From assembly GCF_006402735.1 (NCBI RefSeq), contig NZ_CP017174.1, positions 1,739,001-1,803,000 of the forward strand: a stretch of 64,000 nt of DNA, read 5' to 3'. A program made the translations under genes and the position numbers. The notes below the pieces were generated by a model. It saw nothing but the letters and a program-made list of their open reading frames with translations. It had not been told where the DNA came from and did no database searches. The number at the start of each line of letters is the position of its first letter. Position 1 is the stretch's first letter. Positions 22,548-54,339 of the stretch are shown here, in pieces. This stretch comes from Myxococcus xanthus. Its GTDB lineage: Bacteria > Myxococcota > Myxococcia > Myxococcales > Myxococcaceae.

Positions 22548-22621
22548 TGCCGGAAGCGGGAGTCGAACCCGCACCCTCCAGGCTCTCGACCTGGTGCCTC
22601 TGCCAATTGGGCTACTCCGGC
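22548..22621 (-). tRNA. unusual class I tRNA with anticodon GAG
   Basis: Acceptor GCCGGAG/TTCCGGC, T arm GCGGG-TTCGACT-CCCGC, anticodon stem CCAGG/CCTGG. The loop TCGAGAG places GAG (Leu) at the anticodon, but with C at position 33 instead of the invariant U. Bacterial tRNA-Leu has a long variable arm; this one has five bases. Amino-acid identity is therefore uncertain. Discriminator A. Confidence 0.75.
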
Positions 22622-22631
22622 GTTGGTGAAG

Positions 22632-22702
22632 TGGATTCGCCGGGATTCGAACCCGGATCCCTCGGGTGCAAGCCGAGTGCTCTCCCCTTGAGCTACGTAC
22701 CC
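22632..22702 (-). tRNA. tRNA-Ala(UGC)
   Basis: Acceptor GGGTACG/CGAATCC with G3-U70, the alanine identity pair, and one A-A mismatch at 5-68. D arm GCTC/GAGC, anticodon loop CTTGCAC (UGC), T arm CCGGG-TTCGAAT-CCCGG, discriminator A. 71 nt, no encoded CCA. Confidence 0.88.
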
Positions 22703-22716
22703 ATGTGCTGCGAGAG

Positions 22717-22784
22717 CAGGCCGCCAGGGAATCGAACCCTGCATGCGCGGATTTGGAGTCCAAGCTGCTCCCAAAGCGCGGCCT
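22717..22784 (-). tRNA. tRNA-Trp(CCA)-like with a reduced D arm
   Basis: Acceptor AGGCCGC/GCGGCCT is perfect and the T arm CAGGG-TTCGATT-CCCTG is normal. Anticodon loop CTCCAAA gives CCA (Trp), but its stem holds only about four pairs. Between acceptor and anticodon stem there are 14 nt, too few for the usual linker plus D arm (a 3-bp GCT/AGC stem is possible). Total 68 nt. Either a decayed tRNA or a truncated tRNA-like RNA. Confidence 0.7.
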
Positions 22785-22835
22785 ATGACGAACTGCTCCC
22801 CAAGGAGCGCGCAAACGCTCTGAGGGGTGGAAAGG

Positions 22836-22911
22836 TGGAACCGGAGGCAGGCTTTGCACCTGCACCTGCGGAGTCAGAGTCCGCCATCCTTGCTGGTTGG
22901 ACGACTCCGGT
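22836..22911 (-). tRNA. tRNA-Gln(CUG), atypical T loop, CCA encoded
   Basis: Acceptor ACCGGAG/CTCCGGT, D arm GTCC/GGAT, anticodon arm GCGGA-CTCTGAC-TCCGC (CUG), T stem GCAGG/CCTGC. The T loop reads TGCAAAG in place of TTCGANT and the D loop lacks the GG pair, so the normal elbow contacts are missing. The 3' end is T-CCA, the only array member with CCA encoded. Confidence 0.75.
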
Positions 22912-22929
22912 ATGTGCTGCTGCTTCAGA

Positions 22930-23000
22930 TACCTCCGGAGGGATTCGAACCCTCGCCGTCCGCATATGAGGCAGATGCTCTACCAATGAGCTACGGAGGT
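22930..23000 (-). tRNA. tRNA with CAU anticodon (Met or modified Ile)
   Basis: Acceptor ACCTCCG/CGGAGGT, D arm GCTC/GAGC, anticodon arm TCTGC-CTCATAT-GCGGA, T arm GAGGG-TTCGAAT-CCCTC, discriminator A. Acceptor, D and T arms are almost the same as in the tRNA-Lys(CUU) at 28426-28496, so the two are paralogues that differ in anticodon. A CAU tRNA can be elongator Met or, after lysidine addition, Ile. Confidence 0.88.
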
Positions 23001-23076
23001 GTGTTGTGTGCCGCCCCAGGAAAGAGCAGACGGCATGCATTCATCACGACGATTCAGTTGTCAGATAGCCTGTCTG

Positions 23077-23147
23077 TCGGGGTACTCGGACTCGAACCGA
23101 GATTTCTCGCGTATCAGACGAGTGCCCTGCCCTTGAGCGATACCCCG
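23077..23147 (-). tRNA. tRNA-Ile(GAU)
   Basis: Acceptor CGGGGTA/TACCCCG, D arm GCTC/GGGC, anticodon arm CTCGT-CTGATAC-GCGAG (GAU), T arm CTCGG-TTCGAGT-CCGAG, discriminator A. All arms are intact. The C1-G72 pair is unusual for a tRNA-Ile. 71 nt. Confidence 0.88.
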
Positions 23148-23191
23148 TGAGGTGTGTGCGACTGGGCGTGGCGGGCCACGCTCGTGCTGCA

Positions 23192-23277
23192 TGGGGACGC
23201 TGGGAGTTGAACCCAGCGGGCCCTGTCAGGCTCGGGCTCTACAGGCCCGCGCGTCTCCCCTAACGCTCTACGTCCCC
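23192..23277 (-). tRNA. tRNA-Tyr(GUA)
   Basis: Class II tRNA: acceptor GGGGACG/CGTCCCC, D stem GCGT/ACGC, anticodon arm CGGGC-CTGTAGA-GCCCG (GUA), variable arm CCTG/CAGG, T arm CTGGG-TTCAACT-CCCAG, discriminator A. 86 nt. First member of the array, directly after the hairpin that follows the peptide gene. Confidence 0.9.
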
Positions 23278-23302
23278 GGAGGAGCGGGGGCCCTGAAAGC
23301 CA

Positions 23303-23337
23303 AGAGGCCGGGTCCCCTGGATGGGAGCCCGGCCTCT
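23303..23337 (-). terminator. strong hairpin between peptide gene and tRNA array 1
   Basis: AGAGGCCGGG with TCCC pairs with GGGA and CCCGGCCTCT, a stem of about 14 bp with one bulge. On the minus strand it is followed by TGGCTTTC, a weak T tract. The hairpin in front of array 2 (28641-28668) has the same core, GGCCGGGCTCCC and ACCCGGCC. It may attenuate transcription into the tRNAs, or be a processing site. Confidence 0.6.
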
Positions 23338-23372
23338 GCGTGGCTTGGCGCGCCGGTGATGGGGCGCGAGCG

Positions 23373-23531
23373 TCAGCAGGGTACGGGCGGATGGCCGCCA
23401 ATCCGGTCAAATCCCACGATGCACTTCGAATCGAAGCTCACAAGGGAGCAGGAGGCGGCGTCGAGCTGGGACCAGAGGTTGTTGCGATAGCTGCGCTTCA
23501 TCGGGTTCGTCTGCATCGTCAACGTCGTCAT
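23373..23531 (-). CDS. short peptide gene heading tRNA array 1
   Basis: A 52-residue peptide, MTTLTMQTNPMKRSYRNNLW onward, with three Cys in the C-terminal half and no signal or membrane segment. AGGAG lies 8 nt before the ATG and can pair with CTCCT just upstream (loop CGAA), which would hide the ribosome site. A GTCAGG-N16-CGTA motif lies 27 bp before the ATG. A 43-residue peptide at 28708-28839 holds the same position before array 2 and shares a W-x-x-[LI]-D-A-A core. Function unknown: leader peptide, precursor peptide or small effector are all possible. Confidence 0.6.
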   Translation of the reverse strand: MTTLTMQTNPMKRSYRNNLWSQLDAASCSLVSFDSKCIVGFDRIGGHPPVPC

Positions 23532-23557
23532 GGTCGCCGCTCCTTTCGAGGAGACTC

Positions 23558-23583
23558 TACGTCCGGTGATTTTCGTTCCTGAC
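23558..23583 (-). promoter_or_regulatory. ECF-type promoter motif for peptide 1/tRNA array 1
   Basis: GTCAGG (23583-23578) then 16 bp then CGTA (23561-23558) on the minus strand, with AAC after the first element. The same bipartite pattern precedes six other units in this window. The -10 element is 27 bp before the peptide ATG. Confidence 0.55.
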
Positions 23584-24601: not shown

Positions 24602-24653
24602 CGAGGGACGGAGACCGTCATCCGGTCCCACGCCCCACCTCACACCTCAGGGC

Positions 24654-27249: not shown

Positions 27250-27783
27250 GTAAGCGTTCAGGGGGGGCTGGGCGGTTGAAGAAGGAGCAGGCCATCAGCC
27301 GGCGGGAGGCTTGTCGCTCGCTGACGCGGCGTGGGACATGAGACACGGCCTGTCGTGGCCGAGGTCGACCCCAAGGATGCGCGCATCGCGGAGCTCGAGC
27401 GTCAGGTCGAGGAGCTGACTCGACTGGTGCGGGAGCTCAGGGAACAGTTGCGGCGGAACTCGGGCAACTCGAACCGGCCACCGTCGAGCGACACGCTGGG
27501 GCAGCGGACCGAGCGGCGCAGGCAGTGCGGGAGTGGGAAGAAGCGCGGCGGTCAGCCGGGACACAAAGGCCTGACACGCGCGCTTGTTGCCGAGGAGAAG
27601 GTGAGCGAGTTCAAGCACCTCTTCCCGTCCGAGTGTGAGAATTGCTGGGTTCCCCTCTCACGCGATGGCGGCACGCGGGGGCTGACGAAGAAATGCAGCT
27701 CGCGGCTTGTCTCGGTGCCGTTCGGCGTAACGACAGAACGCTCTCGAGCCAGCGCCAACACACTCCTGGCGTGCGGCAGGTAG
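27250..27783 (+). pseudogene. IS66-family element remnant (left end and transposase N-terminus)
   Basis: GTAAGCGTTCAGGG at 27250 is like the terminal repeat of IS66 elements. The frame from 27331 encodes IAELERQVEELTRLVRELREQ then a GNSNRPPSSD motif and KKRGGQPGHKG, the leucine-zipper and zinc-finger start of the IS66 transposase. It stops being IS66-like at about 27650 and ends at 27783; the catalytic part is missing. The break runs into a second, ISAs1-like remnant. Confidence 0.8.
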
Positions 27784-28200: not shown

Positions 28201-28346
28201 AAGCACAAGTTCCGTTCGTCATTAAGCCTTCCGGCACGACGCCCACCGGACGGTTACGAAGGAAGAGGGACAGATGTCTGCTGCCCAGCCGAGGCGACAT
28301 CTTTCCTGACACAGGGGGCTACCGGTTGGTAGGGCCCTTCGTTCAG

Positions 28347-28419
28347 CTCCCCGGGAGGGATTCGAACCCTCGACCCCGCGGTTAACAGCCGCGTGCTCTG
28401 CCAGTTGAGCTGCCGGGGA
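28347..28419 (-). tRNA. tRNA-Asn(GUU)
   Basis: Acceptor TCCCCGG/CCGGGGA, D arm GCTC/GAGC, anticodon arm CGCGG-CTGTTAA-CCGCG (GUU), T arm GAGGG-TTCGAAT-CCCTC, discriminator G as usual for Asn. Position 8 is C instead of U. 73 nt, no encoded CCA. Confidence 0.9.
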
Positions 28420-28425
28420 ATGCGA

Positions 28426-28496
28426 TACCTCCGGAGGGATTCGAACCCTCGCCACCCGCTTAAGAGGCGGGTGCTCTACCGATGAGCTACGGAGGC
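28426..28496 (-). tRNA. tRNA-Lys(CUU)
   Basis: Acceptor GCCTCCG/CGGAGGT with a G-U first pair, D arm GCTC/GAGC, anticodon arm CCCGC-CTCTTAA-GCGGG (CUU), T arm GAGGG-TTCGAAT-CCCTC, discriminator A. Its frame is shared with the CAU tRNA at 22930-23000. Confidence 0.9.
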
Positions 28497-28502
28497 GTGG
28501 TG

Positions 28503-28577
28503 TCTGAGTGGCAGGATTTGAACCTGCGGCCTCACGGATCCGAACCGTGCGCTCTGGCCAGACTGAGCTACACCCAG
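28503..28577 (-). tRNA. tRNA-Pro(CGG)
   Basis: Acceptor CTGGGTG/CACTCAG with one G-U pair, D arm GCTC/GAGC with a GG loop, anticodon arm CACGG-TTCGGAT-CCGTG (CGG), T arm GCAGG-TTCAAAT-CCTGC, discriminator A. 75 nt. Confidence 0.9.
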
Positions 28578-28596
28578 AAGTGAAGTTGGCTGTGAT

Positions 28597-28652
28597 TGGG
28601 AACGCTGGGGGTCGAACCCAGCAGGGCCGGAACGACAAAAGGCCGGGTTCCC
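28597..28652 (-). pseudogene. decayed tRNA-Tyr-like fragment of array 2
   Basis: The minus strand has a tRNA 3' part, CTGGG-TTCGACC-CCCAG followed by CGTTCCC-A, close to the T arm and acceptor of the tRNA-Tyr at 23192-23277. The D and anticodon arms are missing; GGGAAC just upstream, which is also the 3' arm of the terminator hairpin, could pair with GTTCCC. It holds the same first place as tRNA-Tyr does in array 1. Confidence 0.6.
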
Positions 28653-28668
28653 TGATGGGAGCCCGGCC
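28637..28668 (-). terminator. rho-independent terminator between peptide 2 and tRNA array 2
   Basis: GGCCGGGCTCCC-ATCA-GGGAACCCGGCC (minus strand, 28668-28641) forms a 12-bp stem with one C-A mismatch, followed by TTTT. Its core is the same as in the hairpin at 23303-23337, so the peptide-hairpin-tRNA order is duplicated. Confidence 0.75.
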
Positions 28669-28707
28669 TCCGCGGCGCATGCCGCGTCCGTATCAGGTAC
28701 GCGTGCG

Positions 28708-28839
28708 TCAGCGGGAGTCGGGCGGACTCTTGGAATTCGCGCGGAGACCGCCAGAAAGAGACGGGGCCGCGTCGATGTTGAGCCACGGGCTGCTGGGATA
28801 CTGGGCGCTCTTCAAGAACTTCTGCGAAGTCATCGTCAT
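28708..28839 (-). CDS. short peptide gene heading tRNA array 2
   Basis: A 43-residue peptide, MTMTSQKFLKSAQYPSSPWL then NIDAAPSLSGGL to a Ser/Pro-rich end. AAAGGGG precedes the ATG and a GTCAGG-N15-CGTC motif lies 29 bp before it, nearly the same spacing as for the peptide of array 1. The W-x-x-[LI]-D-A-A core is shared with that peptide. No signal or membrane segment. Too short for a family call; the paired context is the main support for it being a gene. Confidence 0.55.
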   Translation of the reverse strand: MTMTSQKFLKSAQYPSSPWLNIDAAPSLSGGLRANSKSPPDSR

Positions 28840-28867: not shown

Positions 28868-28892
28868 GACGCGCTGAAAATTCACTCCTGAC
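28868..28892 (-). promoter_or_regulatory. ECF-type promoter motif for peptide 2/tRNA array 2
   Basis: GTCAGG (28892-28887), 15 bp, CGTC (28871-28868) on the minus strand. Part of the same motif set as 23558-23583. Confidence 0.55.
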
Positions 28893-29219: not shown

Positions 29220-29792
29220 TCACTGGGACAGGACCGAACTCAGGTTCACCAGCGAATCACGGCGGGTGCCGTGCTTCACGAAGTCCTGAATAGCGCGGGC
29301 CAGTGTCGCGGAGAGCAGCCCCAGCAAGGGGAGGTGTGCGCCTCCTTCGCAGGTGGCCTGGCCCTGGGCGTCCTCGGCATCCGGGGTGAAGCGCTCATCC
29401 CATCGCACCAGCCCGAAGGTGCCATCGGCGCTCACCGCGCCGTGGACAAGCGGCTTTCCCGTCTGGTGCGCGTAGTCGATGAGCACCTGCCGGCTGTGCT
29501 GGTTGTCCATGCAGTCCACCAGCAGGTCCGCGCCACCGCAGAGAGCCTCCGCGTTGTCTCGGGTGAGCCGCACGCCGTGGGACTCCGCCTTCACCCCGTG
29601 CAGGTTGAGGAGTTGGAGCTTGAGCGCCTCAGCCTTGTTCTTCCCGACGGAGGGCTTCACGTAGGCCTGGGCGAGCAGGTTCTTGGACTCGACCCGGTCG
29701 AAGTCGACGAAGACCAGGGTGGCCTCCAGGTTGCGGCACAGCACCGCCGCGGTGGAGCCGATGGCGCCCACGCCACAGAAGAGGATTCGCAT
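29220..29792 (-). CDS. ThiF/E1-like adenylyltransferase
   Basis: A 190-residue single-domain E1-like protein. Rossmann loop GVGAIG at 7-12, the VDFDRVESKNLLAQ motif (acidic residue and Asn that bind ATP) at 29-42, K51/K53 in the GKNKAEALK helix, and VDCMDN around 92-97. ThiF/MoeB/HesA enzymes adenylate the C-terminus of a ubiquitin-like protein. This one is shorter than MoeB and lacks the zinc CxxC pairs. It starts 9 bp after the beta-grasp gene, so the two form an operon. Confidence 0.85.
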   Translation of the reverse strand: MRILFCGVGAIGSTAAVLCRNLEATLVFVDFDRVESKNLLAQAYVKPSVGKNKAEALKLQLLNLHGVKAESHGVRLTRDNAEALCGGADLLVDCMDNQHSRQVLIDYAHQTGKPLVHGAVSADGTFGLVRWDERFTPDAEDAQGQATCEGGAHLPLLGLLSATLARAIQDFVKHGTRRDSLVNLSSVLSQ

Positions 29793-29801: not shown

Positions 29802-30050
29802 TCACCGGGCCCCGAAGGGGACCTTGGGGCGCAGGTAGATGCGCTCCTCACCCCGCGCGCCCCGGAACCGGTCGACGACGAAGTGGGCGAACGCGTCGTC
29901 GCGAAGCTGGCTCAGGTGAAGGCCGGGCACTCCGCCCGAACGAACCAGCTCCGTCGCGATGCGGCGGATGTCGGTGTCCGGAACGGGGCCGTCCAGCTCC
30001 ACCGGGACGTCCGCGGACATGCCGTCGTAGGTGATGTTGAGCGTGGCCAT
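29802..30050 (-). CDS. small beta-grasp/ubiquitin-like protein candidate
   Basis: An 82-residue protein, MATLNITYDGMSADVPVELD then PDTDIRRIATELVRSG and a hydrophobic strand FAHFVVDRF, ending IYLRPKVPFGAR. The order of two strands, a helix, then strands, plus the adjoining E1-like enzyme, fits a ubiquitin-like fold. The end is FGAR and not a bare GG, so processing would be needed or a different chemistry is used. ATG 30050 follows a GGAGG with long spacing. I infer the Ubl role from context. Confidence 0.6.
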   Translation of the reverse strand: MATLNITYDGMSADVPVELDGPVPDTDIRRIATELVRSGGVPGLHLSQLRDDAFAHFVVDRFRGARGEERIYLRPKVPFGAR

Positions 30051-30115: not shown

Positions 30116-30141
30116 GACGGCGATGGGGGCAGGCGCCTGAC
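30116..30141 (-). promoter_or_regulatory. ECF-type promoter motif for the Ubl-E1 operon
   Basis: GTCAGG (30141-30136), 16 bp, CGTC (30119-30116) on the minus strand, 66 bp before the Ubl ATG. Confidence 0.5.
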
Positions 30142-36887: not shown

Positions 36888-37259
36888 TCAAGCGAGGCCG
36901 CTGGGGGTATGGCGGATGCCAGAGGCGCTGCGAAGCGCCTCCGCCCACCATGGCTCGGCCGCCACCAGGACGTCCCGGCCTCGCAGCCGCGCCACCATGC
37001 CCTCGGGCGCCACGACGGAGAAGCGCAGGGGCTTCCCGAGCGCGGAGGTGAGCGCGGCCATGGTGCTCTCATCCTCGGCGGAGAAGCCGAGCGGACCGTC
37101 GGGGTGGCTGTGCGCCACCTCTTCAAGGACGTCACGCAGCCGCCAGATGGCTTCCCAGCGGGCGCGTGAGTCGGGCAGTTGATTCGGGCTGTCGGACGCG
37201 TCGCACCACAGCACTTCGCCGCCGTGGCCGATGAGCAGGCAGACCTCTCGTGTGGACAT
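36888..37259 (-). CDS. JAB/MPN-like metallopeptidase
   Basis: A 123-residue protein with the JAMM signature H50-S-H52-x7-S60-x2-D63 (HSHPDGPLGFSAED). JAB peptidases of bacteria remove or mature ubiquitin-like proteins, or cleave cysteine-synthesis intermediates. The upstream Glu is likely E36 or E46-47. It overlaps the end of the unknown gene, so the unit is Ro60-like protein, unknown protein, JAB on one transcript. With the Ubl and E1 genes 7 kb away it completes a candidate conjugation/deconjugation set. Confidence 0.8.
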   Translation of the reverse strand: MSTREVCLLIGHGGEVLWCDASDSPNQLPDSRARWEAIWRLRDVLEEVAHSHPDGPLGFSAEDESTMAALTSALGKPLRFSVVAPEGMVARLRGRDVLVAAEPWWAEALRSASGIRHTPSGLA

Positions 37260-37269
37260 GGCCGTCTCC

Positions 37270-38259
37270 TCAGGCATGCCGGGTCACCACCAGGACATCC
37301 GTTTCAATGGCCTCGCGAATGACGGACGGTAGGCTCTCCAGCGTGACATCTCCGTCCGCACCGGCCAGGCAGATGCCTGCGTCCAGGACCTGGAGCGAGT
37401 CCGCCGCGACGATGGAGACGAAGCGCTCCCCCATGAAGGCATACGTCACCTCCAGCCGCTGGCCCGCCAGCCGCCGCAAGTCCAGCGGACGCGCGCCCGC
37501 GTTCATCAACGCCTGCTGCGCGCGCTGCATGCCATCCTCCCTCGGATTCCCGCGGACGCCCCGCGACTCCAGACGGGCGATGCGCCGCTGGGCTTCCGCA
37601 ATCAATTCCGCGGACCGGGCCCGTCGCTCGGCGTACTCTCGCTCCTGTTGCGTCCGTGCCGTCTGGGCTTCACGTTCATGGTGCAGACGACGCAGGCAAT
37701 CCTCCGCCGGAACGCGGCCGCCCTCCGCCACCGCGAGTATCCGGCCTCGGACCTCGGCGGGTGCGAAGCGGATGCCCAGGTCGCGCGAGACACGCTCCAG
37801 CAGGGCGTAGCCAAACGCGGCCCGCAGGGGGGCGCTCACGCCCCGAATGTGGGCGAGGGGTTGGTTCTGCTCCAGCGCGAGGCGTGCCGCGCCCTCGGCT
37901 TCGCTTTCGAAATCCTCGCCTTCGAAGAGCAGGGCGCCGTCAAACCATCGGCGCGCACTCACCGGCGCCAGGCGCGGCGGCTCCTCCTCCGGCATCAACT
38001 CCAGGGGCTCCGCCACGGCGCCTTCTCGCACCAGCCGGCGTCCCCAGGCATGTCCCCGCACGCGCGGCAGCGCCTCCATGCACTCAGGCTCGGAGGGTTC
38101 ACGCGGCGTGGCGTCTCGTCCCTTCACATCGAAGCGCCACCACCCCGGGGTGACCGGGGTGGTGACACGGAGGCGTCGCGAGGCGGAATCGACGGTGCCA
38201 CCGCCCAGATACGGCAGCACCACCGACTCCACCTTCCCGAGGAACTTCCGGTAGTCCAC
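37270..38259 (-). CDS. uncharacterised protein in the Ro60-like operon
   Basis: A 329-residue protein, MDYRKFLGKVESVVLPYLGG. The N-terminal 170 residues are rich in strands (RRLRVTTPVTPGWWRFDVKG), the middle (about 180-245) is a charged coiled-coil-like helix (REAQTARTQQEREYAERRARSAELIAEAQRRIARLE), the last 80 are strands. No signal or membrane segment. I do not recognise the family. Its place between the vWA protein and the JAB gene suggests a complex member. Confidence 0.75.
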   Translation of the reverse strand: MDYRKFLGKVESVVLPYLGGGTVDSASRRLRVTTPVTPGWWRFDVKGRDATPREPSEPECMEALPRVRGHAWGRRLVREGAVAEPLELMPEEEPPRLAPVSARRWFDGALLFEGEDFESEAEGAARLALEQNQPLAHIRGVSAPLRAAFGYALLERVSRDLGIRFAPAEVRGRILAVAEGGRVPAEDCLRRLHHEREAQTARTQQEREYAERRARSAELIAEAQRRIARLESRGVRGNPREDGMQRAQQALMNAGARPLDLRRLAGQRLEVTYAFMGERFVSIVAADSLQVLDAGICLAGADGDVTLESLPSVIREAIETDVLVVTRHA

Positions 38260-38289: not shown

Positions 38290-40059
38290 TCACGCCACCT
38301 TCAGCAGCGGCGTGCGCATCACCCGCTCCACCCAGCCGGACTGGGCGGTTCCGGGCAGCGTGGGCGCATCCATCAGCGCCTTGAGCACCCGGGGGACCTG
38401 GTACGGGTCCTCGAACTGGTCCACGTTCACTTCGCTGAAGGGCACTCGCAGCTGCGCGGCGCAGGTTCGAACCGTCGAGCCCCGCGCATGTGCCACCGAC
38501 ACCAGCAGGGCCATCGCCGACACCGGGATGCGGAGGTCACGGAATGCCCGGGCGAACTGGTCGCCTGCCTCTCCGGCCTCGTCTCCCACCACGATGACCA
38601 CCAGCTTCGCGTCCTCCGGCACGCGAACGCCGTCACGATGCAACGCGTGCAGCGCGGACGCGTGCACCGTTCCTCCCGACGCCCGCAGCCCCGCCAGCAT
38701 GTGCTGGACGGCGATGCGGTTGGCGGCCTTTGGACGCAGCACCGTGCCCAGGGTGTCGAACGCGGCGATGTGCAGCTTGTCCATCGGGAAGCCCGCGAGG
38801 ATGCGCGACAGCGCCTCCTTCGAACTCTCGATGGCCCCCTCCATGGAGCCCGACTTGTCGATGAGGAACATCACCCGCACGTCGGTCTCCGCCGTCGCCT
38901 CCGCCACTGCCTGCCGTGCCGCGTTGTCGCTGGCCTCCTCCAGCTTGCGTCGCAGCACCTCGCTGCGGACGTTCTTCGCGATGTTCAGCGCCCGCTGGTC
39001 CGTGGCCGTGTGCACTGCCTTCTCCCAACGCGCGCGGATGGCCGGGTCCGTCAGCAGGCCCAGCTCCTCGAGCGTGGGCGTCATCAGCCGCAGGTCACGG
39101 TCCGACAGCGAGGGCAACAGCGCCGCCATGATGGCCGGCGTGAGACCCACGTCCTTCGGCAGCCGGCCCACGACCTCCTTGTAGGAGAGGCGCTCCAGGT
39201 CGATCCACTCGCAGATTTCCGCCTCCGACAGGCCGTCGAAGCGCTCGCGCTTGACCAGCGTCAGCCCATTCAGGCCCACCTCGCGGTGGCCCTGCGCGGA
39301 CTGCTTCTGCTTCCAGCCAAGCACCTCGAAGAAGCCCTGCGCGCGCGGCTTGTAGCCGGCCTTGCGCGCCAGCTTCTTCAGCGTCTCCTTGTAGCCCGCC
39401 TTCACCAGACCCTGGAGCATGGGCATGTTGGCCTCACGCGCCGCCAGCCACTTCGACGCCACGCGCTTCCAGCGGCCCAGCGGCGCCTTTCGGGACGCTG
39501 GGTCACCAAAGCCCGCCTCGCGGTTGAGTTGAGCGATCTCCGGATGCTCCAGCAGCTCCGCCACGCGCAGCACCGCCTTGGGCGTGAGCATGCGCATCGA
39601 CTTGCGCTCGTAGTGGAGCACCATCGCCTCGCCGATGGCTCGCCAGTCGTCGTCGTGGAAGGCCACGCCGCCGTGCTCATCGCGCACGGGCTGGCCCGCG
39701 TGCTCCTGCACCAGCATGAGCGCGCACGTCGCGACCTTGAGGTCGCGCCAGTCCGTCTGGGTCAGCGCGTACGACGCGAAGTGAGCCATCAACTCGGCGT
39801 TGAGCCGGTAGATGTCCAGGAGCTGCCGGTAGAGCTTCACTGCGGCGGGAACGAAGAGGCCCGGCTTCACCGGGCGCCCCTTTTCACGCTGGAACGGCGT
39901 GGCGTGCGCCGCCGCGTGCCAGGTGCCATTCACATCCAGGCCAGGCCGGTTGTGCCACAGGTGGGCGGAGCCTCCGAGCACCAGGTCCAGCAGGCGCTCG
40001 GCGGGACCGCGCTGCGACTCGGGCAGCAGCGCGTTCGGGTTCTGCGTCTGGGTCGTCAT
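38290..40059 (-). CDS. Ro60/TROVE-like protein with C-terminal vWA domain
   Basis: A 589-residue protein. The first 370 residues look like stacked helices (PAAVKLYRQLLDIYRLNAELM, WLAAREANMPMLQGLVKAGYK, RLSYKEVVGRLPKDVGLTPA). The last 220 are a von Willebrand A domain with MIDAS DKSGS near 399-403 and later Thr and Asp ligands (GGTVHAS, VVGDEAGEAGD). This size and order, helical ring then vWA, is that of Ro60/TROVE proteins, which bind Y RNAs and misfolded RNAs. The helical part is divergent, so the call leans on the two Y-RNA-like genes upstream. Start ATG 40059 follows AAGGGAG. Confidence 0.65.
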   Translation of the reverse strand: MTTQTQNPNALLPESQRGPAERLLDLVLGGSAHLWHNRPGLDVNGTWHAAAHATPFQREKGRPVKPGLFVPAAVKLYRQLLDIYRLNAELMAHFASYALTQTDWRDLKVATCALMLVQEHAGQPVRDEHGGVAFHDDDWRAIGEAMVLHYERKSMRMLTPKAVLRVAELLEHPEIAQLNREAGFGDPASRKAPLGRWKRVASKWLAAREANMPMLQGLVKAGYKETLKKLARKAGYKPRAQGFFEVLGWKQKQSAQGHREVGLNGLTLVKRERFDGLSEAEICEWIDLERLSYKEVVGRLPKDVGLTPAIMAALLPSLSDRDLRLMTPTLEELGLLTDPAIRARWEKAVHTATDQRALNIAKNVRSEVLRRKLEEASDNAARQAVAEATAETDVRVMFLIDKSGSMEGAIESSKEALSRILAGFPMDKLHIAAFDTLGTVLRPKAANRIAVQHMLAGLRASGGTVHASALHALHRDGVRVPEDAKLVVIVVGDEAGEAGDQFARAFRDLRIPVSAMALLVSVAHARGSTVRTCAAQLRVPFSEVNVDQFEDPYQVPRVLKALMDAPTLPGTAQSGWVERVMRTPLLKVA

Positions 40060-40205: not shown

Positions 40206-40340
40206 GCGCCCGAGTGACGAGGCCATTCTTGGATTAACGGTCCCAGTGCTCTACCGCTGAGCTACGGAGCCACGAATGGCTCCGGCGGGATTCGAACCCG
40301 CGACAGCTGTATGGCGTGTTGGGCCCCGTCGGCCGGGCGC
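40206..40340 (-). ncRNA. Y-RNA-like, circularly permuted tRNA-like RNA 1
   Basis: On the minus strand, in order: outer stem 5' arm GCGCCCG (40340-40334); a GGCC-loop-GGCC hairpin; T arm GCGGG-TTCGAAT-CCCGC; 3' acceptor strand CGGAGCC; a 6-nt closing loop ATTCGT; 5' acceptor strand GGCTCCG; D arm GCTC/GAGC with GG; an Asn-type anticodon arm with GTT; outer stem 3' arm CGGGCGC (40212-40206). Rearranged, the two parts make a tRNA-Asn cloverleaf. YrlA-type bacterial Y RNAs have this plan and bind Ro60. It lies 9 bp after the phosphatase stop and 147 bp before the Ro60-like gene. Confidence 0.75.
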
Positions 40341-40348: not shown

Positions 40349-41056
40349 TTACGAGAAGACGGACACGTCGCCGTGGACCGGAATCCGGGCCACGTCCTTG
40401 CCGCCCCGGTATGTACTCCGGGCCGGCACCGAGACGAGCTCCCAGGTAGGGAGTACCACCGCTGTCAGCGACCGTCCGTAGACGCACCCGGTGTCGATAC
40501 CCACCGCGTGCTCGGTGACGAGCGGCGCGTCGAAGACGGTGTGGCCGAAGATGACCCGCTCCGGCCCCTTCCAGTGGTGCGTCCAGAAGGTCCAGCCTTC
40601 AGGCGCCTTGGATGGCCAGTAGCTCTTGGCCGCTGGGGGCCGGATGCACTGGGCATGGAGCAGGTGGTACGGGTCCTGTTTCTCGACAGGGATGTCCGGC
40701 AGCATGCCGGCGTGCACCACGATGGCGTTGTGCTCCGGCAGCCGCAGGTAGCGAGGCAGTTGTGCCATCCAGTCATAGTGCCCGGGTTCGAGCACCCGGC
40801 GCGTCTCGAGGTGGTCGGGATGCAACCGCTCGTCCGCCCGGTGGCGCTGCTGGAGGTGCTTCTCCTCGTGGTTGCCGAGGATGGCCTCGTGCCACATGGC
40901 CAGCTCCACGCACTCGCGGCGCTTCGGGCCGCGGTCCACCAGGTCACCCGCGAAGATGATCCGGTCGCTGGAGGTCGCGCCCACCTTGTCGAGCAGCTCC
41001 ACGGCTTCGTCGTAACAGCCGTGAAGGTCTCCGATGACGATGGTGCGGCGGGACAT
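40349..41056 (-). CDS. PPP-family metallophosphoesterase
   Basis: A 235-residue phosphatase with the three PPP signatures: GDLHG, GDLVDRG and GNHE, then VVHAG and GHTVFD histidines. Members include Ap4A hydrolase, PrpA-type protein phosphatases and the 2',3'-phosphatase part of bacterial RNA-repair Pnkp. ATG 41056 has GAGG upstream; a TTG five codons earlier is also open. It sits between two tRNA-like RNAs and before a Ro60-like gene, which makes RNA-end healing an attractive but unproven role. Confidence 0.85.
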   Translation of the reverse strand: MSRRTIVIGDLHGCYDEAVELLDKVGATSSDRIIFAGDLVDRGPKRRECVELAMWHEAILGNHEEKHLQQRHRADERLHPDHLETRRVLEPGHYDWMAQLPRYLRLPEHNAIVVHAGMLPDIPVEKQDPYHLLHAQCIRPPAAKSYWPSKAPEGWTFWTHHWKGPERVIFGHTVFDAPLVTEHAVGIDTGCVYGRSLTAVVLPTWELVSVPARSTYRGGKDVARIPVHGDVSVFS

Positions 41057-41083: not shown

Positions 41084-41211
41084 GAGCGCCCGAGTGAAGA
41101 AGCCAGTTGGCTGATTCCAGGATCAGTGACGGACCACCCGTCGGCACATGCCCATGGGGCATATGTGTGGAGTCGAACCACGGCTTGTAGGGCCGCTTCG
41201 GCCGGGCGCTC
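41084..41211 (-). ncRNA. Y-RNA-like, circularly permuted tRNA-like RNA 2
   Basis: Outer helix GAGCGCCCG (41211-41203) with CGGGCGCTC (41092-41084), 9 bp; GGCC-GAAGC-GGCC hairpin; T arm with loop TTCGACT; 3' acceptor strand CATATGC then C-CCA, so the mature 3' end is encoded; a 3-nt TGG link; 5' acceptor strand GCATGTG; D arm GACG/CGTC with GG loop; an anticodon-like hairpin CTGAT/ATCAG at 41111-41126. Directly follows an ECF-type promoter motif and precedes the phosphatase gene by 27 bp. Same architecture as the RNA at 40206-40340 with different arms, so it is selected for structure. Confidence 0.75.
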
Positions 41212-41229: not shown

Positions 41230-41254
41230 GACGCAGGCCCCCGCTGTTCCTGAC
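41230..41254 (-). promoter_or_regulatory. ECF-type promoter motif for tRNA-like RNA 2 and the Ro60-like operon
   Basis: GTCAGG (41254-41249), 15 bp, CGTC (41233-41230) on the minus strand, about 20 bp before the RNA's outer helix. Nothing similar is seen immediately before the Ro60-like gene, so the whole minus-strand unit may start here. Confidence 0.6.
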
Positions 41255-41274: not shown

Positions 41275-41310
41275 GTTCCTGACGCCTGCTCTATAAATCC
41301 CGTCAGGAAC
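41275..41310. promoter_or_regulatory. dyad of the promoter element between the sigma gene and RNA 2
   Basis: GTTCCTGACG (41275-41284) and CGTCAGGAAC (41301-41310) form a perfect 10-bp dyad around 16 bp that hold TATAAAT. A third copy, GTTCCTGAC, is at 41246-41254. The dyad contains the -35-like element of the sigma promoter and a minus-strand copy, so it may be an operator shared by divergent promoters. Confidence 0.55.
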
Positions 41311-41327
41311 GCCACGCGGCTTTCGTC
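41302..41327 (+). promoter_or_regulatory. ECF-type promoter motif for the sigma gene (autoregulation)
   Basis: GTCAGG at 41302-41307, 16 bp, CGTC at 41324-41327, 162 bp before the sigma-factor GTG. The same bipartite motif as before the other members suggests the sigma factor drives its own gene. Confidence 0.55.
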
Positions 41328-41488: not shown

Positions 41489-42157
41489 GTGTACGAGCAG
41501 CTCACGGATGACGAATTGTTCGCGGAGGTGGTCCGCCGCCGCGCCACTGGCGAGCCCGTTGGAGGCCCGCTCGGGGCGTTGGTGCAGCGGTGGGCCCGAC
41601 CCTCGCGGTACGTCATCAGCAAGATTCAGGCGAGCTACGGCCGTGGTTCCCCAGCGGACGCGGACGAGCTCTTCCAGGACGCGGTCGGGAAGTTCATCGA
41701 CCGGGGTCTGGACCAGTTCCGCGGCGTGTCGGAGCAGATGCCCGGCCGGAGCGCGTCTCCCAAGACGTTCTTCCTGCGCATCGTCAAGCACGTGGCCATC
41801 GACTTCTACCGGAAGCACCGCGAGGAGCTCGCGGCGCCTCCTTCGGACCCCGATGACGCCATGGAAGAGCCACCCTCCGAGGTGGCTCGCGCCGTCGAGT
41901 TCGGGAAGCGGCGTGAAGAGCGCGCCGAAGCCCAGGAGCTGTATTGGGCGGCATTTGCCCGCCTCCAGCAGGAGCACCCGAAGGAAGCTTCGGCTTGGGA
42001 CCTGTACCACCACGAAGACGTCGAGGATCACGAAGAATGTGCCCGGCGCCTGAACATCACCGTGGTGAACAGCTACAAGCGCGTCAGCCGGGCCCAGGCC
42101 TACCTCAAGCTCTACCTGCTGGACCTTCATCGCGAGTCGCATGGGGAGGAAGCGTGA
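41489..42157 (+). CDS. ECF-type RNA polymerase sigma factor
   Basis: A 222-residue protein from GTG 41489. Region 2: DADELFQDAVGKFIDRGLDQFRG then PKTFFLRIVKHVAIDFYRKHRE, the core-binding and -10 part. Region 4: DHEECARRLNITVVNSYKRVSRAQAYLK, the -35-reading helix-turn-helix. The linker is acidic. It is followed 48 bp later by an anti-sigma-like gene. Its own promoter carries the GTCAGG-N16-CGTC motif, so I infer it recognises that motif. Confidence 0.85.
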   Translation: MYEQLTDDELFAEVVRRRATGEPVGGPLGALVQRWARPSRYVISKIQASYGRGSPADADELFQDAVGKFIDRGLDQFRGVSEQMPGRSASPKTFFLRIVKHVAIDFYRKHREELAAPPSDPDDAMEEPPSEVARAVEFGKRREERAEAQELYWAAFARLQQEHPKEASAWDLYHHEDVEDHEECARRLNITVVNSYKRVSRAQAYLKLYLLDLHRESHGEEA

Positions 42158-42205: not shown

Positions 42206-43393
42206 ATGATTGTTGGAGATACGCTGTCCCGCTATTCCGCCCGCCGCTCGCAGCTTCTGTCGGGCACGGCTTCTCCCGGTGAAGTTCTCGAGGCGGCGGG
42301 TGACCTGCTGCGCCGCCGCTCCCGGTTGGAGACCGAAGGTGTGGACGCCGCCCTGCGGGGCCTGGGTCGACCTCAGGTGGAAGCCTGGTTGAAGTCGCAG
42401 AAGCCGCAGTCGCTGCAACCGGTGCTGCTGAGGGCCGCGGAAGAAGCTGTCGAGGTGGCGCTCGACGGCGGCGAAGAGGCGGACATGTGGCGGGCCTCCG
42501 CGCTGGAGGGACTTTCCGCTCGCGACCGGGCCTCCTCCGCCGCACACGCCCTGGCCGTCTGGGAGGGCTTTCACGGGGCCCTCGACGGCGAGTCCGCGCA
42601 GCTTCGAGACCGCTTTCTCGCCGCGCTCCAGAGTCTGGACTCAGCACTCCGTCCCCGAGCGCGTTGGTTCATCCCACTCAATCCGCAGCGCCGGCAGGAG
42701 CGCGACCTCCTCGAGCCCGCCGAGCAGGACGCCGCCTGGTGGTTCTCCGCGCGCGCCGGCTGCGATGACCTGGTCGCCACCTGGACGGCCACTCCCCAGA
42801 CGCTGACGGCCCACCTTCAGGAATGCGACGCATGCCGCGCGGACATGGCGGATGCCGCGCCCGTGGACATGCCTCCCCGCCGGCACCTCACCGCGGACGA
42901 CCTCTGGCGCCTCGACATGGGGCTGCTGTCCGAGGACGAGCGGACCCGGCTGGATGCGCACACGGCGCGCTGCGGCGAGTGTGCCCAGGCCGTGCTGGCG
43001 CTGGACGAGGGCGAGGCGGCCATCGAAGAGGCGCTGGACATGGAGGAGGACGGGACGGTAGCCCGCTCCGCGCGCACCTCGCGCGCGCCTGTCTCCCACC
43101 GCGCTCACGCCGCCCGCCTGCCGGAGCAGCGCGAGGTGCTGGATGAGCGCCGCGACTTTCGCGTGGTGCTGGTGCGTGAGCGTCAGCGCGTGCGCCTGCT
43201 GGTGCAGCCCCTGACTGGACGGACCGTGACGGCGGCGGTGTTCCTGAGCCCCGGCCGTCCCTCGCTCAAGCCGGCCCATGGGCCGGAGGGCATCGCCTTT
43301 GATTTGACGTCCGCGTCGTCCACCGGCGCGCGCTCTGCCCACCTGTCCGTGCAGGCGGGGAGCGAAACCCTGGAGCGCGACTTCGCCTTCTGA
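42206..43393 (+). CDS. anti-sigma-like protein with two zinc-finger motifs
   Basis: A 395-residue protein with no membrane segment. Two HxxxCxxC motifs: TAHLQECDACRADM and DAHTARCGECAQAV, the first near residue 209, the second near 255, like tandem ZAS/anti-sigma fingers. About 200 helical residues precede them; a C-terminal beta domain follows (RVVLVRERQRVRLLVQPLTG). Most single anti-sigma factors have one finger and a membrane helix; a soluble two-finger form would be a cytoplasmic sensor. AGGAGGA lies 8 bp before the ATG. Confidence 0.75.
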   Translation: MIVGDTLSRYSARRSQLLSGTASPGEVLEAAGDLLRRRSRLETEGVDAALRGLGRPQVEAWLKSQKPQSLQPVLLRAAEEAVEVALDGGEEADMWRASALEGLSARDRASSAAHALAVWEGFHGALDGESAQLRDRFLAALQSLDSALRPRARWFIPLNPQRRQERDLLEPAEQDAAWWFSARAGCDDLVATWTATPQTLTAHLQECDACRADMADAAPVDMPPRRHLTADDLWRLDMGLLSEDERTRLDAHTARCGECAQAVLALDEGEAAIEEALDMEEDGTVARSARTSRAPVSHRAHAARLPEQREVLDERRDFRVVLVRERQRVRLLVQPLTGRTVTAAVFLSPGRPSLKPAHGPEGIAFDLTSASSTGARSAHLSVQAGSETLERDFAF

Positions 43394-48905: not shown

Positions 48906-49044
48906 CACCCGAGTGGACAAGCCGGTTTGGAGACTTGTCAGCTTGAAGGCTGGTGCCGTCGACCACTTGGCTACCCCTCCTCGCGGAGGGGGCTGGATTC
49001 GAACCAGCGAAGTCCTAAGCGTGTAGGGCCTGTCCGGCCGGGTG
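48906..49044 (-). ncRNA. Y-RNA-like, circularly permuted tRNA-like RNA 3 with long variable arm
   Basis: Outer helix CACCCG (49044-49039) with CGGGTG (48911-48906), a covarying version of GCGCCCG/CGGGCGC in the other two. GGCC-GGACA-GGCC hairpin; CTACACGC as in RNA 2; T arm GCTGG-TTCGAAT-CCAGC; 3' acceptor CCCCTCC; GNRA tetraloop GCGA; 5' acceptor GGAGGGG, 7 perfect pairs; D arm GCC/GGC with GG loop; anticodon-like CAGC-CTTCAA-GCTG; then a long variable-type arm GACAAG/CTTGTC. It lies on the minus strand just past the pcrA stop and 11 bp from a promoter motif. Confidence 0.7.
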
Positions 49045-49054
49045 TGGTGGGAGT

Positions 49055-49080
49055 GACGAAAGAAAGCCCGCGCGCCTGAC
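49055..49080 (-). promoter_or_regulatory. ECF-type promoter motif for tRNA-like RNA 3
   Basis: GTCAGG (49080-49075), 16 bp, CGTC (49058-49055) on the minus strand; its -10 element is 11 bp before the outer helix of RNA 3, a good distance for a transcription start. Confidence 0.55.
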
Positions 49081-51893: not shown

Positions 51894-51973
51894 TGACGTG
51901 ACGTCCGGCGTCCCGGCCCCGTGCGAGGTGCAGTCGCCTCGCGGGGCCGGCGCCGGCCGCGAGGAGGTGGCAC

Positions 51974-52753
51974 GTGGACCTGGAACTGGGTGGCAAGGTG
52001 GTACTGGTGACGGGTGGCTCGGAGGGGCTGGGGGCTGCGGTGGCCCGGCGGCTCGTCCGGGAGGGCGCGAAGGTGGCGCTCTGTGCCCGCGGGGCGGAGC
52101 GGCTGGAGGCCACCGCCGCGGCCCTGCGCGCCGAGGGTGGGGATGTGCTCACCGTCCAGGCCGACGTGTCACGTGCGTGGGAAGTGGAGCACTTCGTGGA
52201 TGCCGCCCACGCGCGCTTCGGACGCATCGACGGGCTGGTGAACAACGCGGGCACCGCGGCGGGCCGGCCCTTCGCCTCGGTGAGTGACGCGGAGTGGGAG
52301 GCCGACCTCCAGCTCAAGGTCTTCGCGGCGATTCGTGCCTCGCGGCAGGCGCTGCCCTTCCTGAAGGAGTCGGGGAGCGGCGCCATCGTCAACGTGCTGG
52401 CCATCGCGGCGAAGACGCCGGGCGCAAACTCCACGCCGTCGTCGGTGTCTCGCGCGGCGGGGCTCGCCTTGACGAAGGCGCTGTCCAAGGAGTTGGGCCC
52501 CCACGCCATCCGGGTGAACGCGGTGCTGGTGGGCATCATCGAAAGTGGCCAGTGGGCGCGTCGTGCCAAGGAGGTGGGCAAGCCCGTGGAGTCCTTCCAG
52601 CAGGAGATGGCGCGTCACGCCGGAATTCCGCTGGGCCGGGTGGGGAAGGCGGAGGAGTTCGCGGACACCGTGGCCTTCTTGCTGTCACCCCGCGGTGGCT
52701 ACATCAGCGGCGCGGCCATCAACGTGGATGGCGGCCTGTCCGCGGCCGTCTGA
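51974..52753 (+). CDS. short-chain dehydrogenase/reductase
   Basis: A 259-residue SDR from GTG 51974, with GAGGAGG before it. Nucleotide motif TGGSEGLG, NNAG at GLVNNAGTA. The catalytic Tyr-x3-Lys position reads SSVSRAAGLALTKALSKELG, with Ser-Ser-Val-Ser in place of YxxSK, so the usual Tyr is absent and catalysis may be impaired. C-terminal GAAINVDGGLSA is typical. Substrate unknown. Confidence 0.8.
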   Translation: MDLELGGKVVLVTGGSEGLGAAVARRLVREGAKVALCARGAERLEATAAALRAEGGDVLTVQADVSRAWEVEHFVDAAHARFGRIDGLVNNAGTAAGRPFASVSDAEWEADLQLKVFAAIRASRQALPFLKESGSGAIVNVLAIAAKTPGANSTPSSVSRAAGLALTKALSKELGPHAIRVNAVLVGIIESGQWARRAKEVGKPVESFQQEMARHAGIPLGRVGKAEEFADTVAFLLSPRGGYISGAAINVDGGLSAAV

Positions 52754-52762
52754 TGTCCCTTC

Positions 52763-52787
52763 GTCAGGAACGGGCCGGGTGCCCGTG
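52763..52787 (+). promoter_or_regulatory. weaker ECF-type promoter motif upstream of rtcB
   Basis: GTCAGG at 52763-52768 followed by AACGGG, then after 15 bp CGTG (52784-52787) where the others have CGTC. 128 bp before the rtcB ATG. Confidence 0.4.
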
Positions 52788-52914
52788 TGTGGACGGTGAA
52801 GACGGCTTCGCGCCGTCTGGCGACCGCGGCTGCTGACCCCAGGTCCCTCATCTCTCCGTCACGTCCCCCTGGCAGGTCCACGCAAAGGACCCCGGGGCAT
52901 TCCTGAGTTGGGTC

Positions 52915-54339
52915 ATGCAGCCGAAACTGAACCGGCTTCTCCGGGCGCTCGCCCGCGAGGGGCTCGAGGTCGCCTATGACGGCCGCCTCTATTCCGTCCG
53001 CCTCCTGGGTGACGCTCACGCGCCGCCCGCCGAAGTCCTCCTCCCGCCGGACCTGCCCGTGGAGGGCAAGGCCTTCCAACAACTCGCCCAGCTCGCGGCC
53101 CTGAGACACCCCGGTGGTGGCGAGGTGCTGCGGGTACGTGCCACGCCAGACTTCCACCCGGGAGACTCCGGGGTGGCCATTGGCTCGGTGCTCCACACGC
53201 GCGGGCTGGTGGTGCCCGGCGCCATTGGCACCGACATCAACTGCGGCATGCGGCTGCACGTCGCGGACCTCTCCGTGGAGGACTTCCTGGCGAAGCGGTC
53301 GGCCTTCGTCGAGCGGATGAAGGGCCACTACTTCTTCGGCACGCGTGACGTCACCATGGGCTCGCGGGCCTCCGAGGCGCTGCTGCGCGACGGCGTGCAG
53401 GGCTGGCTCCTGGAGACGCTGGAGCAGCCGCTGGGGTGCGCGGGACGGGCCGACCTGGCCCAACTCGACGCGGAGGTGTCGCGCATCCACCTGGGCGGCG
53501 GGCTGAAGGGCCATCCGCGCTGGGCGCCCGAGTCCTTCACGCGCGAAGGGCTGGTGCGCGACGCGGGCCTGGCCACCATTGGCGGCGGCAACCACTTCGT
53601 GGAGGTGCAGCGCGTGGAGGCCGTGGAGGACCGGGCTCGGGCGTGGGACTGGGGCGTGCGTGAGGGGCAGCTCGCGTTCATGATTCACTCCGGCAGCCGG
53701 GACGTGGGCAAGCATGTGGGCGTGGCCTGGCAGGACCGCGCGCGCCAGGCGTGGCCCGCGGGAACGCCGCTTCCGGCCAGCGGCATCCTCCCCCTGGGAG
53801 ATGCGCGGCTCGTCACCGAATACCTGGAGGCGGAGGCGACAGCGGCCAACTACGCCTTCCTCAACCGCCTGCTGCTGGCGGAGTTGCTGCGCCAGACGCT
53901 CCGGGAGCTCTTCGGGGACGTGGAGGCTCCGCTCGTCTACGACGTGCCTCACAACCTGACGCTGCCCTACGAGGGCGGCTGGCTGGCGCGCAAGGGCGCA
54001 TGCCCGGCGGGGGCGGAGCAACCCGTCATCATCCCCGGCTCCATGGGGGCCACGTCCTTCCTCATGGTGGGGTGTGGGGATGCGCGGGCGCTGGAGTCCG
54101 CGTCGCACGGCGCGGGCCGCGCGCGCTCCCGCTTCTCCCTGTCGCGGGGCGGCGCGGACCAGAGCGAGGCCGCCCTGGGGCTGACCGGCGTGGACTGCAT
54201 CACCCTTCGCGCGGAGCGCCGCGTCGAAGAAGCGCCCGTGGCGTACAAGCCCATCCGCCCGGTGGTGGATGCGCAGGTGGAGGCCGGCATCGTCCGGGAG
54301 GTAGCCCGGCTCTCCCCCCTGCTCACCTTCAAGGCCTGA
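52915..54339 (+). CDS. rtcB: RNA 3'-phosphate/5'-OH ligase RtcB
   Basis: A 474-residue RtcB: TPDFHPGDSGVAIGSV, GTDINCGM with C110 as a manganese ligand, GGGNHFVEV at 223-231, HSGSRDVGKH, IIPGSMGATSF, and SASHGAGRAR with the guanylated His near 402. It joins a 2',3'-cyclic phosphate or 3'-phosphate to a 5'-hydroxyl and repairs cleaved tRNA and rRNA. In enteric bacteria rtcB is an operon partner of Ro60 and Y RNAs, which matches the other genes here. No rtcA or archease is seen. Confidence 0.95.
   Translation: MQPKLNRLLRALAREGLEVAYDGRLYSVRLLGDAHAPPAEVLLPPDLPVEGKAFQQLAQLAALRHPGGGEVLRVRATPDFHPGDSGVAIGSVLHTRGLVVPGAIGTDINCGMRLHVADLSVEDFLAKRSAFVERMKGHYFFGTRDVTMGSRASEALLRDGVQGWLLETLEQPLGCAGRADLAQLDAEVSRIHLGGGLKGHPRWAPESFTREGLVRDAGLATIGGGNHFVEVQRVEAVEDRARAWDWGVREGQLAFMIHSGSRDVGKHVGVAWQDRARQAWPAGTPLPASGILPLGDARLVTEYLEAEATAANYAFLNRLLLAELLRQTLRELFGDVEAPLVYDVPHNLTLPYEGGWLARKGACPAGAEQPVIIPGSMGATSFLMVGCGDARALESASHGAGRARSRFSLSRGGADQSEAALGLTGVDCITLRAERRVEEAPVAYKPIRPVVDAQVEAGIVREVARLSPLLTFKA

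Follow-up and report, generated by a model that had tools for sequence, protein, structure and literature searches.

Why should two transfer RNA (tRNA) arrays, two Y-RNA-like RNAs, the genes of a proposed ubiquitin-like protein and an E1-like enzyme (Ubl-E1), a sigma factor gene and the RNA ligase gene rtcB all carry the same bipartite sequence in front of them? The question is raised by a stretch of 64,000 nucleotides (nt) in the 9.3 Mb single-contig genome of Myxococcus xanthus (G000:C1:1739001-1803000), hereafter called the window. A first, sequence-only reading of this DNA had listed seven sites of the motif, scanned here as GTCAGG-N15/16-CGTV. All seven were recovered at their coordinates and strands, and the window holds exactly 7 matches, compared with a mean of 1.83 in 100 dinucleotide shuffles (largest 6; 0/100 reached 7). 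The best explanation, which we regard as probable, is that promoters of the local sigma factor are combined with ribosome-mediated attenuation of spare tRNA arrays by codon-sensing leaders. All our evidence is sequence, from which we infer promoter recognition by the sigma factor, leader translation, termination, control by the ribosome and the inducing stress.

Five of the motif copies lie on the minus strand, before tRNA array A (23558..23583, GTCAGG-N16-CGTA, with like units in relatives), tRNA array B (28868..28892, GTCAGG-N15-CGTC), Ubl-E1 (30116..30141), the operon of a Y-RNA-like RNA and a phosphatase (41230..41254) and a second Y-RNA-like RNA (49055..49080). The other two are on the plus strand, before the sigma gene (41302..41327), divergent from the Y-RNA/phosphatase copy, and before rtcB (52763..52787). 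All seven are exact matches. The motif word itself is not enriched, because the whole-genome scan gave 88 sites in 9.3 Mb and 173 for the reversed-pattern control. Seven of the 88 copies are packed in 29.2 kb, where about 0.28 would be expected, which is about 25 times the expected density; the T-preceded form occurs at 26 genome sites, 4 of them in the window's region. The distinctive feature of the motif is its position, not its genome-wide frequency. In raw counts the genome-wide check goes against the sequence-only reading, as 79 of the 88 matches (most not inspected singly) are unlinked to any recognised unit, so the motif word alone cannot define a regulon; its conserved position does. 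A further match, about 70 bp upstream of a tRNA-Gln(ttg) gene outside the arrays, was treated as a putative chance match.

The conserved promoter core consists of GTCAGG (often GTCAGGAA) and CGTC. The first element had been likened to the GGAAC -35 of extracytoplasmic function (ECF) sigma factors, which was only partly right: GGAAC was rejected as the -35 anchor, as GTCAGG is constant in relatives and the bases that follow it vary. Judged by the spacing of other ECF promoters, GTCAGG, not GGAAC, appears to occupy the place of the -35 hexamer. ECF sigma factors with CGTC-type -10 elements have a short two-element promoter, autoregulation and a zf-HC2 neighbour; unlike in these, the -35 core here is GTCAGG and the putative regulon comprises RNA repair and tRNAs. 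Counted from the motif's final base, the ATGs of the two leaders in the window lie at 26 and 28 bp, so that the near-equal spacing described earlier stands and its values of 27 and 29 bp are recounted.

We then compared the sigma neighbourhoods of eight relatives, onto which the window's proteins, tRNAs and motifs were mapped; the genomes are related by descent and hence are not independent samples. Most window motif positions recur in these relatives, and the intervening spacers have diverged. Before the sigma gene the motif is exact in six of the eight and has one mismatch in G007 and G014; among 35 sigma-bearing genomes it is exact in 28 and has one mismatch in 7, which bears out the earlier claim that a copy precedes the ECF sigma gene itself. 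The divergent copy of the Y-RNA/phosphatase operon is exact in 25 and has one mismatch in 4 of the same 35 genomes. As a background, the exact motif was found in 281 of 20000 random 260-bp windows from the same regions. In each of the nine genera for which DNA upstream of the gene was inspected, the pre-sigma copy is kept, exactly or with one mismatch, with spacers and neighbours that vary. In five of six distant genomes (58-65% sigma identity) the motif begins 46-70 nt upstream of the sigma start, and in G037 it begins 163 nt upstream.

The other positions are also largely retained. The motif lies before the Y-RNA/phosphatase operon in 8/8 relatives (G037 has no phosphatase), before Ubl-E1 in 7/8 (in G037 the Ubl-E1 genes belong to the VWA-gene operon), and before rtcB in all six relatives whose fetched stretch contains this gene (all but G033 and G037). 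At the second Y-RNA position it is present in four of the seven relatives retaining both flanking genes, and the G002 copy there looks degenerate. It also precedes tRNA arrays, the largest with 18 tRNAs, in G017, G002 and G009; no tRNA array was found in the fetched stretches of G007, G014, G033 and G037. G037, from another family, has a compact layout with the sigma and zf-HC2 genes on one side, the genes for the VWA protein, an unknown protein, JAB, Ubl and E1 on the other, and a motif pointing each way. In the genus of G033, the VWA gene has a motif copy immediately in front of it and is separated from the phosphatase by about 12 kb of other DNA.

The sigma gene (41489..42157, +) encodes an ECF-like protein of 222 amino acids, in which sigma-70 region 2 was recognised (PF04542, 2.2e-7, 31.0 bits, cut-off 24); its profile gave 0 matches against solved structures. 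At E <= 1e-15 the sigma factor was found in 87/195 genomes of the phylum, 86 of them in the window's family and one in that of G037, and in the near relative G023 it is 99% identical. In 15/15 genomes mapped, the sigma gene is followed by the gene of a zf-HC2 protein (42206..43393, +; PF13490, 23.0 bits, cut-off 22.2), which has two Hx3Cx2C motifs and a C-terminal beta domain and is likely an anti-sigma factor. The structure model of this protein was confident at residues 306-395 only, and a fold search with it returned no match at E <= 0.001.

A strict unit pattern, made up of the motif, a Shine-Dalgarno sequence and an ATG, was run on 61 genomes. It gave 59 sites in 25 genomes and 0 sites for the reversed control. 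All 25 genomes carry the sigma factor, 10 more sigma genomes have no strict site, and the 26 sigma-less genomes have none, giving leader-type tRNA units in 25/35 sigma-bearing relatives versus 0/26 without sigma. Most likely, the motif is the shared promoter of a regulon under an ECF-like sigma factor that also controls its own gene. These genomes carry many other sigma factors, and another sigma factor or another regulator might bind the motif, the local sigma gene being merely a member of the regulon. We consider this improbable, as the pre-sigma copy persists across the nine genera amid changing spacers and neighbours, and strict leader units are absent from the 26 relatives without sigma. 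In the reading with the local sigma factor, GTCAGG-N15/16-CGTC would be the -35/-10 pair that it recognises, also driving its own gene. The regulon would supply a set for RNA repair and surveillance (RtcB, the Pnkp-like phosphatase, the Y-RNA-like RNAs, the VWA protein and Ubl-E1-JAB) and would also supply the spare tRNA arrays. The autoregulated sigma regulon for RNA repair or surveillance put forward in the sequence-only reading agrees with the conserved positions, the pre-sigma motif and the co-occurrence of units and sigma, and falls short where it was defined by the word only; with tRNA supply added to RNA repair, such a regulon fits well.

What lies between the motif and the tRNAs is the second part of the answer. 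For array A, the motif is followed by a leader open reading frame (ORF) of 52 codons and a stop (23373..23531, -; AAAGGAG before the ATG), a terminator-like hairpin with a T-rich tail (GAGGCCGGG..CCCGGCCTC; 23295..23336, -) and tRNAs for Tyr, Ile, Met, Gln, Ala and Leu (22548..23277, -), plus a tRNA-like stretch at 22717-22785. For array B, a leader ORF of 43 codons and a stop (28708..28839, -), to which a related leader was found in G021, precedes a terminator-like hairpin with a T-rich tail (28631..28670, -) and tRNAs for Pro, Lys and Asn (28346..28577, -). These ORFs had been called two peptide genes; they are indeed present between motif and tRNAs, but look like regulatory leaders of the arrays rather than products.

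To the 59 strict units a few were added by a slightly looser pattern, giving 61, and 11 usable units of 14 new ones from named records brought the set to 72; 3 of the 14 were dropped (<330 nt), and one more (<1000 nt) was dropped in the synonymous-codon test. All 72 promoter and leader units lead into tRNAs, the distance from GTCAGG to ATG is 51-53 nt in every one, and a GC-rich terminator-like hairpin lies within 140 nt of the leader stop in 68. Four units (L142, L187, L194 and L215) are without the usual hairpin sequence after the leader and are possibly decayed or constitutive arrays. The same units were also identified in database records whose titles name Myxococcus, Pyxidicoccus, Corallococcus, Archangium and Citreicoccus. 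Typical Myxococcus units also turn up under the title Comamonas sp. KCTC 72670 (L213, L219, L221), a name that is probably wrong.

The window's own genome has at least four units, the two in the window and those at C1:446603 (Asp, Arg) and C1:441118 (Gly, Leu). The last one (L268:418-895, from G000:C1:441118 onward) has promoter, leader and hairpin before tRNA-Gly(gcc) and Leu(cag), with a leader rich in L, P, G and V, and escaped the strict pattern because of its start-codon context. The eight array tRNAs with a same-anticodon gene elsewhere in the genome differ strongly from it, with 34 to 57 identical columns of 74-93 when the C1:441118 unit is counted among the tRNAs elsewhere. tRNA-Arg(gcg) was found only in an array (L190, G000:C1:447100), the other Arg genes being acg, ccg, cct, tcg and tct. 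No second genomic copy of Ile(gat) or Ala(tgc) was found, perhaps because rRNA operons were masked or missed. The array tRNA-Leu(gag) at window positions 22548-22621 has 74 nt; the other Leu(gag) gene, of 83 nt, has a long variable arm that the array copy seems to lack.

To quantify the relation between leaders and arrays, we scored the fraction of leader codons read by the array's own tRNAs. After removal of near-duplicate leaders, 51 of 61 units were left, and their mean match was 0.337, compared with 0.216 when the arrays were permuted (z 10.7, 0/20000). The match persists within each leader type (type I 0.339 versus 0.295, type II 0.334 versus 0.240; 0/20000 each). It also extends to synonymous codons, as 487 of 802 codons for Ala, Leu, Pro, Val, Arg, Glu and Gly fit the isoacceptor present, compared with 381.3 (standard deviation 12.3) in permuted sets (0/2000). 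Within genomes, the own leader fits better on average in all 21 genomes with several units, and of 57 arrays, 48 are matched best by their own leader, with 21 expected. The 11 further units had played no part in framing the idea, and in them 23 of 25 tRNA comparisons were higher than in leaders without that tRNA. Sister contrasts over single tRNAs gave 53 higher, 24 lower and 27 ties.

Single units illustrate this match. An array of Glu-Arg-Arg-Val follows a leader with RR and EPEPVPDELEW, Pro-Ala follows a leader with TAPGPALPSAAPGGPPPG, and Tyr-Ile-His follows a leader with SYR, SHV and FGHIHGHPP; leaders before Pro with Leu and/or Asn in Corallococcus and a Myxococcaceae metagenome-assembled genome are rich in N, P and L. 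The leaders favour codons that ten window genes avoid, often rare U-ending ones: TAT and TAC occur 34 and 6 times in leaders versus 7 and 115 times in the ten genes, and GAT and GAC 44 and 110 times versus 19 and 302. The frequency of matched codons is highest at 7-10 codons from the stop (0.422 versus 0.196), and over the final three codons it falls almost to background (0.142 versus 0.128). The regulatory codons are tied to the product, as in an attenuator.

Could the match be nothing but ancestry, with a real promoter and a few leader types that became linked by chance with certain tRNAs and were then duplicated together with them? In the strictest sister-pair test, which best allows for descent, 17 pairs were for the match, 6 against and 7 about zero (p 0.035), a modest result, and in several close pairs of units related by descent the tRNA changed and the leader codons did not; both points favour ancestry. 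The match survives inside each leader type and between synonymous codons, and it recurs in the 23 of 25 comparisons from further units that include Corallococcus and Archangium, which makes ancestry a doubtful explanation of low probability. Matching of leader codons to array tRNAs as a working property is the reading that we retain.

The leader ORF is kept in frame behind its ribosome-binding site, with the Shine-Dalgarno sequence and ATG at a fixed distance and with indels that mostly preserve the frame: of 46 gaps in leaders, 33 have a length divisible by three, compared with 7 of 60 in a noncoding control. In 17 pairs, substitutions are spread evenly over the codon positions (57, 61, 61), and 39 single-change codons are synonymous and 79 are not, so the peptide is not conserved and the leader looks like an RNA-level device. 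The leader might instead encode a working small peptide whose composition reflects its own function and family history, the tRNAs being co-transcribed behind a processing hairpin. There are two main leader families with recognisable N-termini, and related units inherit leader and array together by descent, as such a peptide would predict. The flat codon-position substitutions disfavour it, and the codon match reaches synonymous codons and very different peptides in one genome; we rate a functional peptide as very improbable.

An attenuating leader would also need an alternative RNA pairing. Such a pairing can form between the terminator's 5' arm and the end of the leader, for example CCCGGACTCTGA or GCCCG...CCTGCTGA; in array A, the last 16 nt of the leader including its stop (23373..23388, -) form the proposed antiterminator strand. 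When the pairing was tested in 59 units (3 of 62 without hairpin were left out), the leader-end window outpaired all distant windows with the terminator 5' arm in 44, as an antiterminator would, with a mean energy of -19.7 kcal/mol at the leader end and about -9 to -15 elsewhere. In array B, a two-sided change preserves the pairing (CCCGC with GCGGA instead of CCTGC with GCAGA), and RNAalifold supported the terminator in both leader types. A small hairpin between the leader stop and the terminator (CCCGTC..GACGAGG or similar) is present in many units and is possibly a pause site; RNAalifold predicted its conservation for type I alone, where some of its pairs show two-sided changes and others are broken.

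In the mechanism that we propose, the sigma factor would open the promoters and each tRNA array would have a second gate, a leader ORF of 31-56 codons rich in codons for the array's own tRNAs, which would decide array by array. With plentiful tRNAs, the ribosome would reach the stop and cover the leader's last bases, the terminator would form and the array would be off. With a tRNA missing, uncharged or cut, the ribosome would stall upstream and the leader's last bases would pair with the 5' arm of the terminator. The array would then be transcribed until its tRNAs relieve the stall. The inducing stress would be tRNA damage or depletion. Conservation of the motif, the leader frame, the codon-anticodon match and both alternative pairings are seen in the sequences. 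We consider it rather likely, at somewhat lower confidence, that the whole acts as a two-key, self-correcting tRNA refill, in which the dedicated sigma would come on when RNA is damaged and each array would measure, codon by codon, the lack of its own tRNAs, the leaders of one genome splitting the genetic code among the arrays down to single isoacceptors.

Several results weigh against this mechanism, in addition to the genome-wide scan, the sister-pair test and the close pairs described above. On the promoter side, the sigma protein is just under the cut-off of TIGR02937 (1.4e-10, 41.0 bits, cut-off 42.9, residues 42-209), and the exact motif is missing at the second Y-RNA position of G021, G017 and G033 and at array B of G021. 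On the codon side, Ala alone was not significant in the synonymous test (183/2000), the match fails for Gly(ccc) (GGG 1/559 codons) and Ala(tgc), for five genomes (G001, G006, G016, G018 and G023) the advantage of the own leader is <=0.015, and the two lower comparisons in the further units both concern Pro(cgg), which is not enriched in two new units. On the RNA side, in 15 of 59 units the arm has a pairing partner elsewhere in the leader that equals or surpasses the leader end. The antiterminator, at -12 to -19 kcal/mol in the 20 of 59 units listed, is weaker than the terminator, whose mean minimum free energy is -31.8 kcal/mol, and must therefore win kinetically. The T tracts are short and interrupted, with a mean of 5.9 T in 14 nt. 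Tracts of this kind would suit a hairpin that works via Rho or RNA processing, with leader translation shielding the RNA, instead of intrinsic termination and antitermination. The leader end, however, complements the 5' arm and a two-sided change keeps this pairing, so we judge Rho or processing unlikely, though worth keeping in mind, and prefer attenuation through alternative pairing.

The genes and RNAs behind the other motif copies would belong largely to RNA repair and surveillance. rtcB (52915..54339, +) encodes an RNA ligase with a clear RtcB domain (PF01139, 1.2e-86). The calcineurin-like phosphatase (40349..41056, -) counts ApaH/PrpE and the phosphatase portion of bacterial Pnkp among its relatives. 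In the window and in several relatives, the RNAs behind the Y-RNA motifs fold in the manner of Y RNAs: a stem closes the structure, and there is a tRNA-like T arm. Those of the window are Y-RNA-like RNA 1 (41084..41211, -), with a like fold in relatives, and Y-RNA-like RNA 2 (48906..49044, -), in which the T arm was assigned from the fold. A third, YrlA-like RNA (40214..40329, -) scored 46.8 bits with RF02553, below the gathering threshold of 69; its fold is Y-RNA-like.

Next to the YrlA-like RNA lies the gene of a VWA protein with a helical N-terminal part (38290..40059, -), termed Ro-like because of this place and layout and nothing more. An identity as Ro60 is unproven, and we do not assign that name. 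Pfam gave no support for Ro60, no match to the TROVE domain (PF05731) was found in G000, hhalign against the Ro-like protein of G043 gave a probability of 3.9%, only the VWA part matched solved structures with E below 0.4, and a single-sequence AlphaFold (AF2) model was unusable (predicted local distance difference test 40.6). Further genes here encode a conserved operon protein without a family in the library scan, known from relatives (37270..38259, -), a JAB/JAMM-like protein whose alignment has HSHP..S..D (36888..37277, -; PF14464, 1.9e-4, 21.8 bits, below the cut-off of 25), a small, proposed ubiquitin-like protein with no family match (29802..30050, -) and a ThiF/E1-like adenylyltransferase (29220..29792, -; PF00899, 4.5e-22). 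Between the hairpin and the tRNAs of array B, at about 28593-28625 of the window, there is a remnant like the 3' part of a tRNA, resembling a decayed tRNA-Tyr. A fragment of DUF6444, which we take to be a transposase-linked family, lies between the two tRNA arrays at 27331-27783.

Parts of this arrangement are familiar from other systems. The Salmonella rsr-yrlBA-rtcBA operon, in which RtcR controls Y RNA, Rsr and RtcB with sigma54, likewise co-regulates Y RNAs, a Ro-type protein and RtcB and has a link to damaged tRNA (PMC7790460). It is one operon under a CARF-domain activator and sigma54, whereas here there are several transcripts with an ECF-like promoter, together with tRNA arrays, Ubl-E1-JAB and a Pnkp-like phosphatase, and no TROVE match (PMC7790460). 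In Anabaena, TrcR represses both a silent spare tRNA (trn) operon and rtcB, which are induced by translation stress (PMC10272220), so spare tRNAs and RtcB under one regulator are already known, by another route. TrcR is a ribbon-helix-helix repressor, and the portion of its description available mentions no leader ORF or attenuator (PMC10272220); here, positive sigma control and codon-sensing leaders would take its place.

With trp/his-type attenuation the units share a leader ORF with regulatory codons, a terminator, an alternative pairing and a codon choice tuned for sensitivity (PMC1183508). They differ in that the products are the tRNAs themselves, one leader would sense many amino acids, and the putative antiterminator strand is made of the leader's own last codons (PMC1183508). 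According to attenuation theory, sensitivity is set both by which of the synonymous codons are used and by how large a share of the codons is regulatory; the leader codon choice here appears to agree with this in kind (PMC1183508). Dense tRNA gene arrays also occur in mycobacteria as tRNA array units, with a role there unknown or proposed as antidefence (PMC5966550, PMC12803027). A word search found no words beginning with promoter, leader or attenuat in the main texts of these two papers, so no such control appears to be described there. No precedent for sigma control combined with codon-sensing leaders of tRNA arrays was found in the literature searched, mostly without subscription papers.

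Catalogues of tRNA arrays exist for many bacteria, and their role is described as unknown in one recent paper (PMC12803027). For the arrays described here, the mode of control would be readable from sequence, predicting which tRNA shortage opens which array, and two known themes, RNA-repair regulons and attenuation, would be joined. The purpose of the spare tRNAs becomes testable as the replacement of tRNAs cut by toxins, phages or stress, and the leaders offer natural single-tRNA sensors. If true, cells would here have a new means of noticing that tRNAs are missing and of replenishing them.

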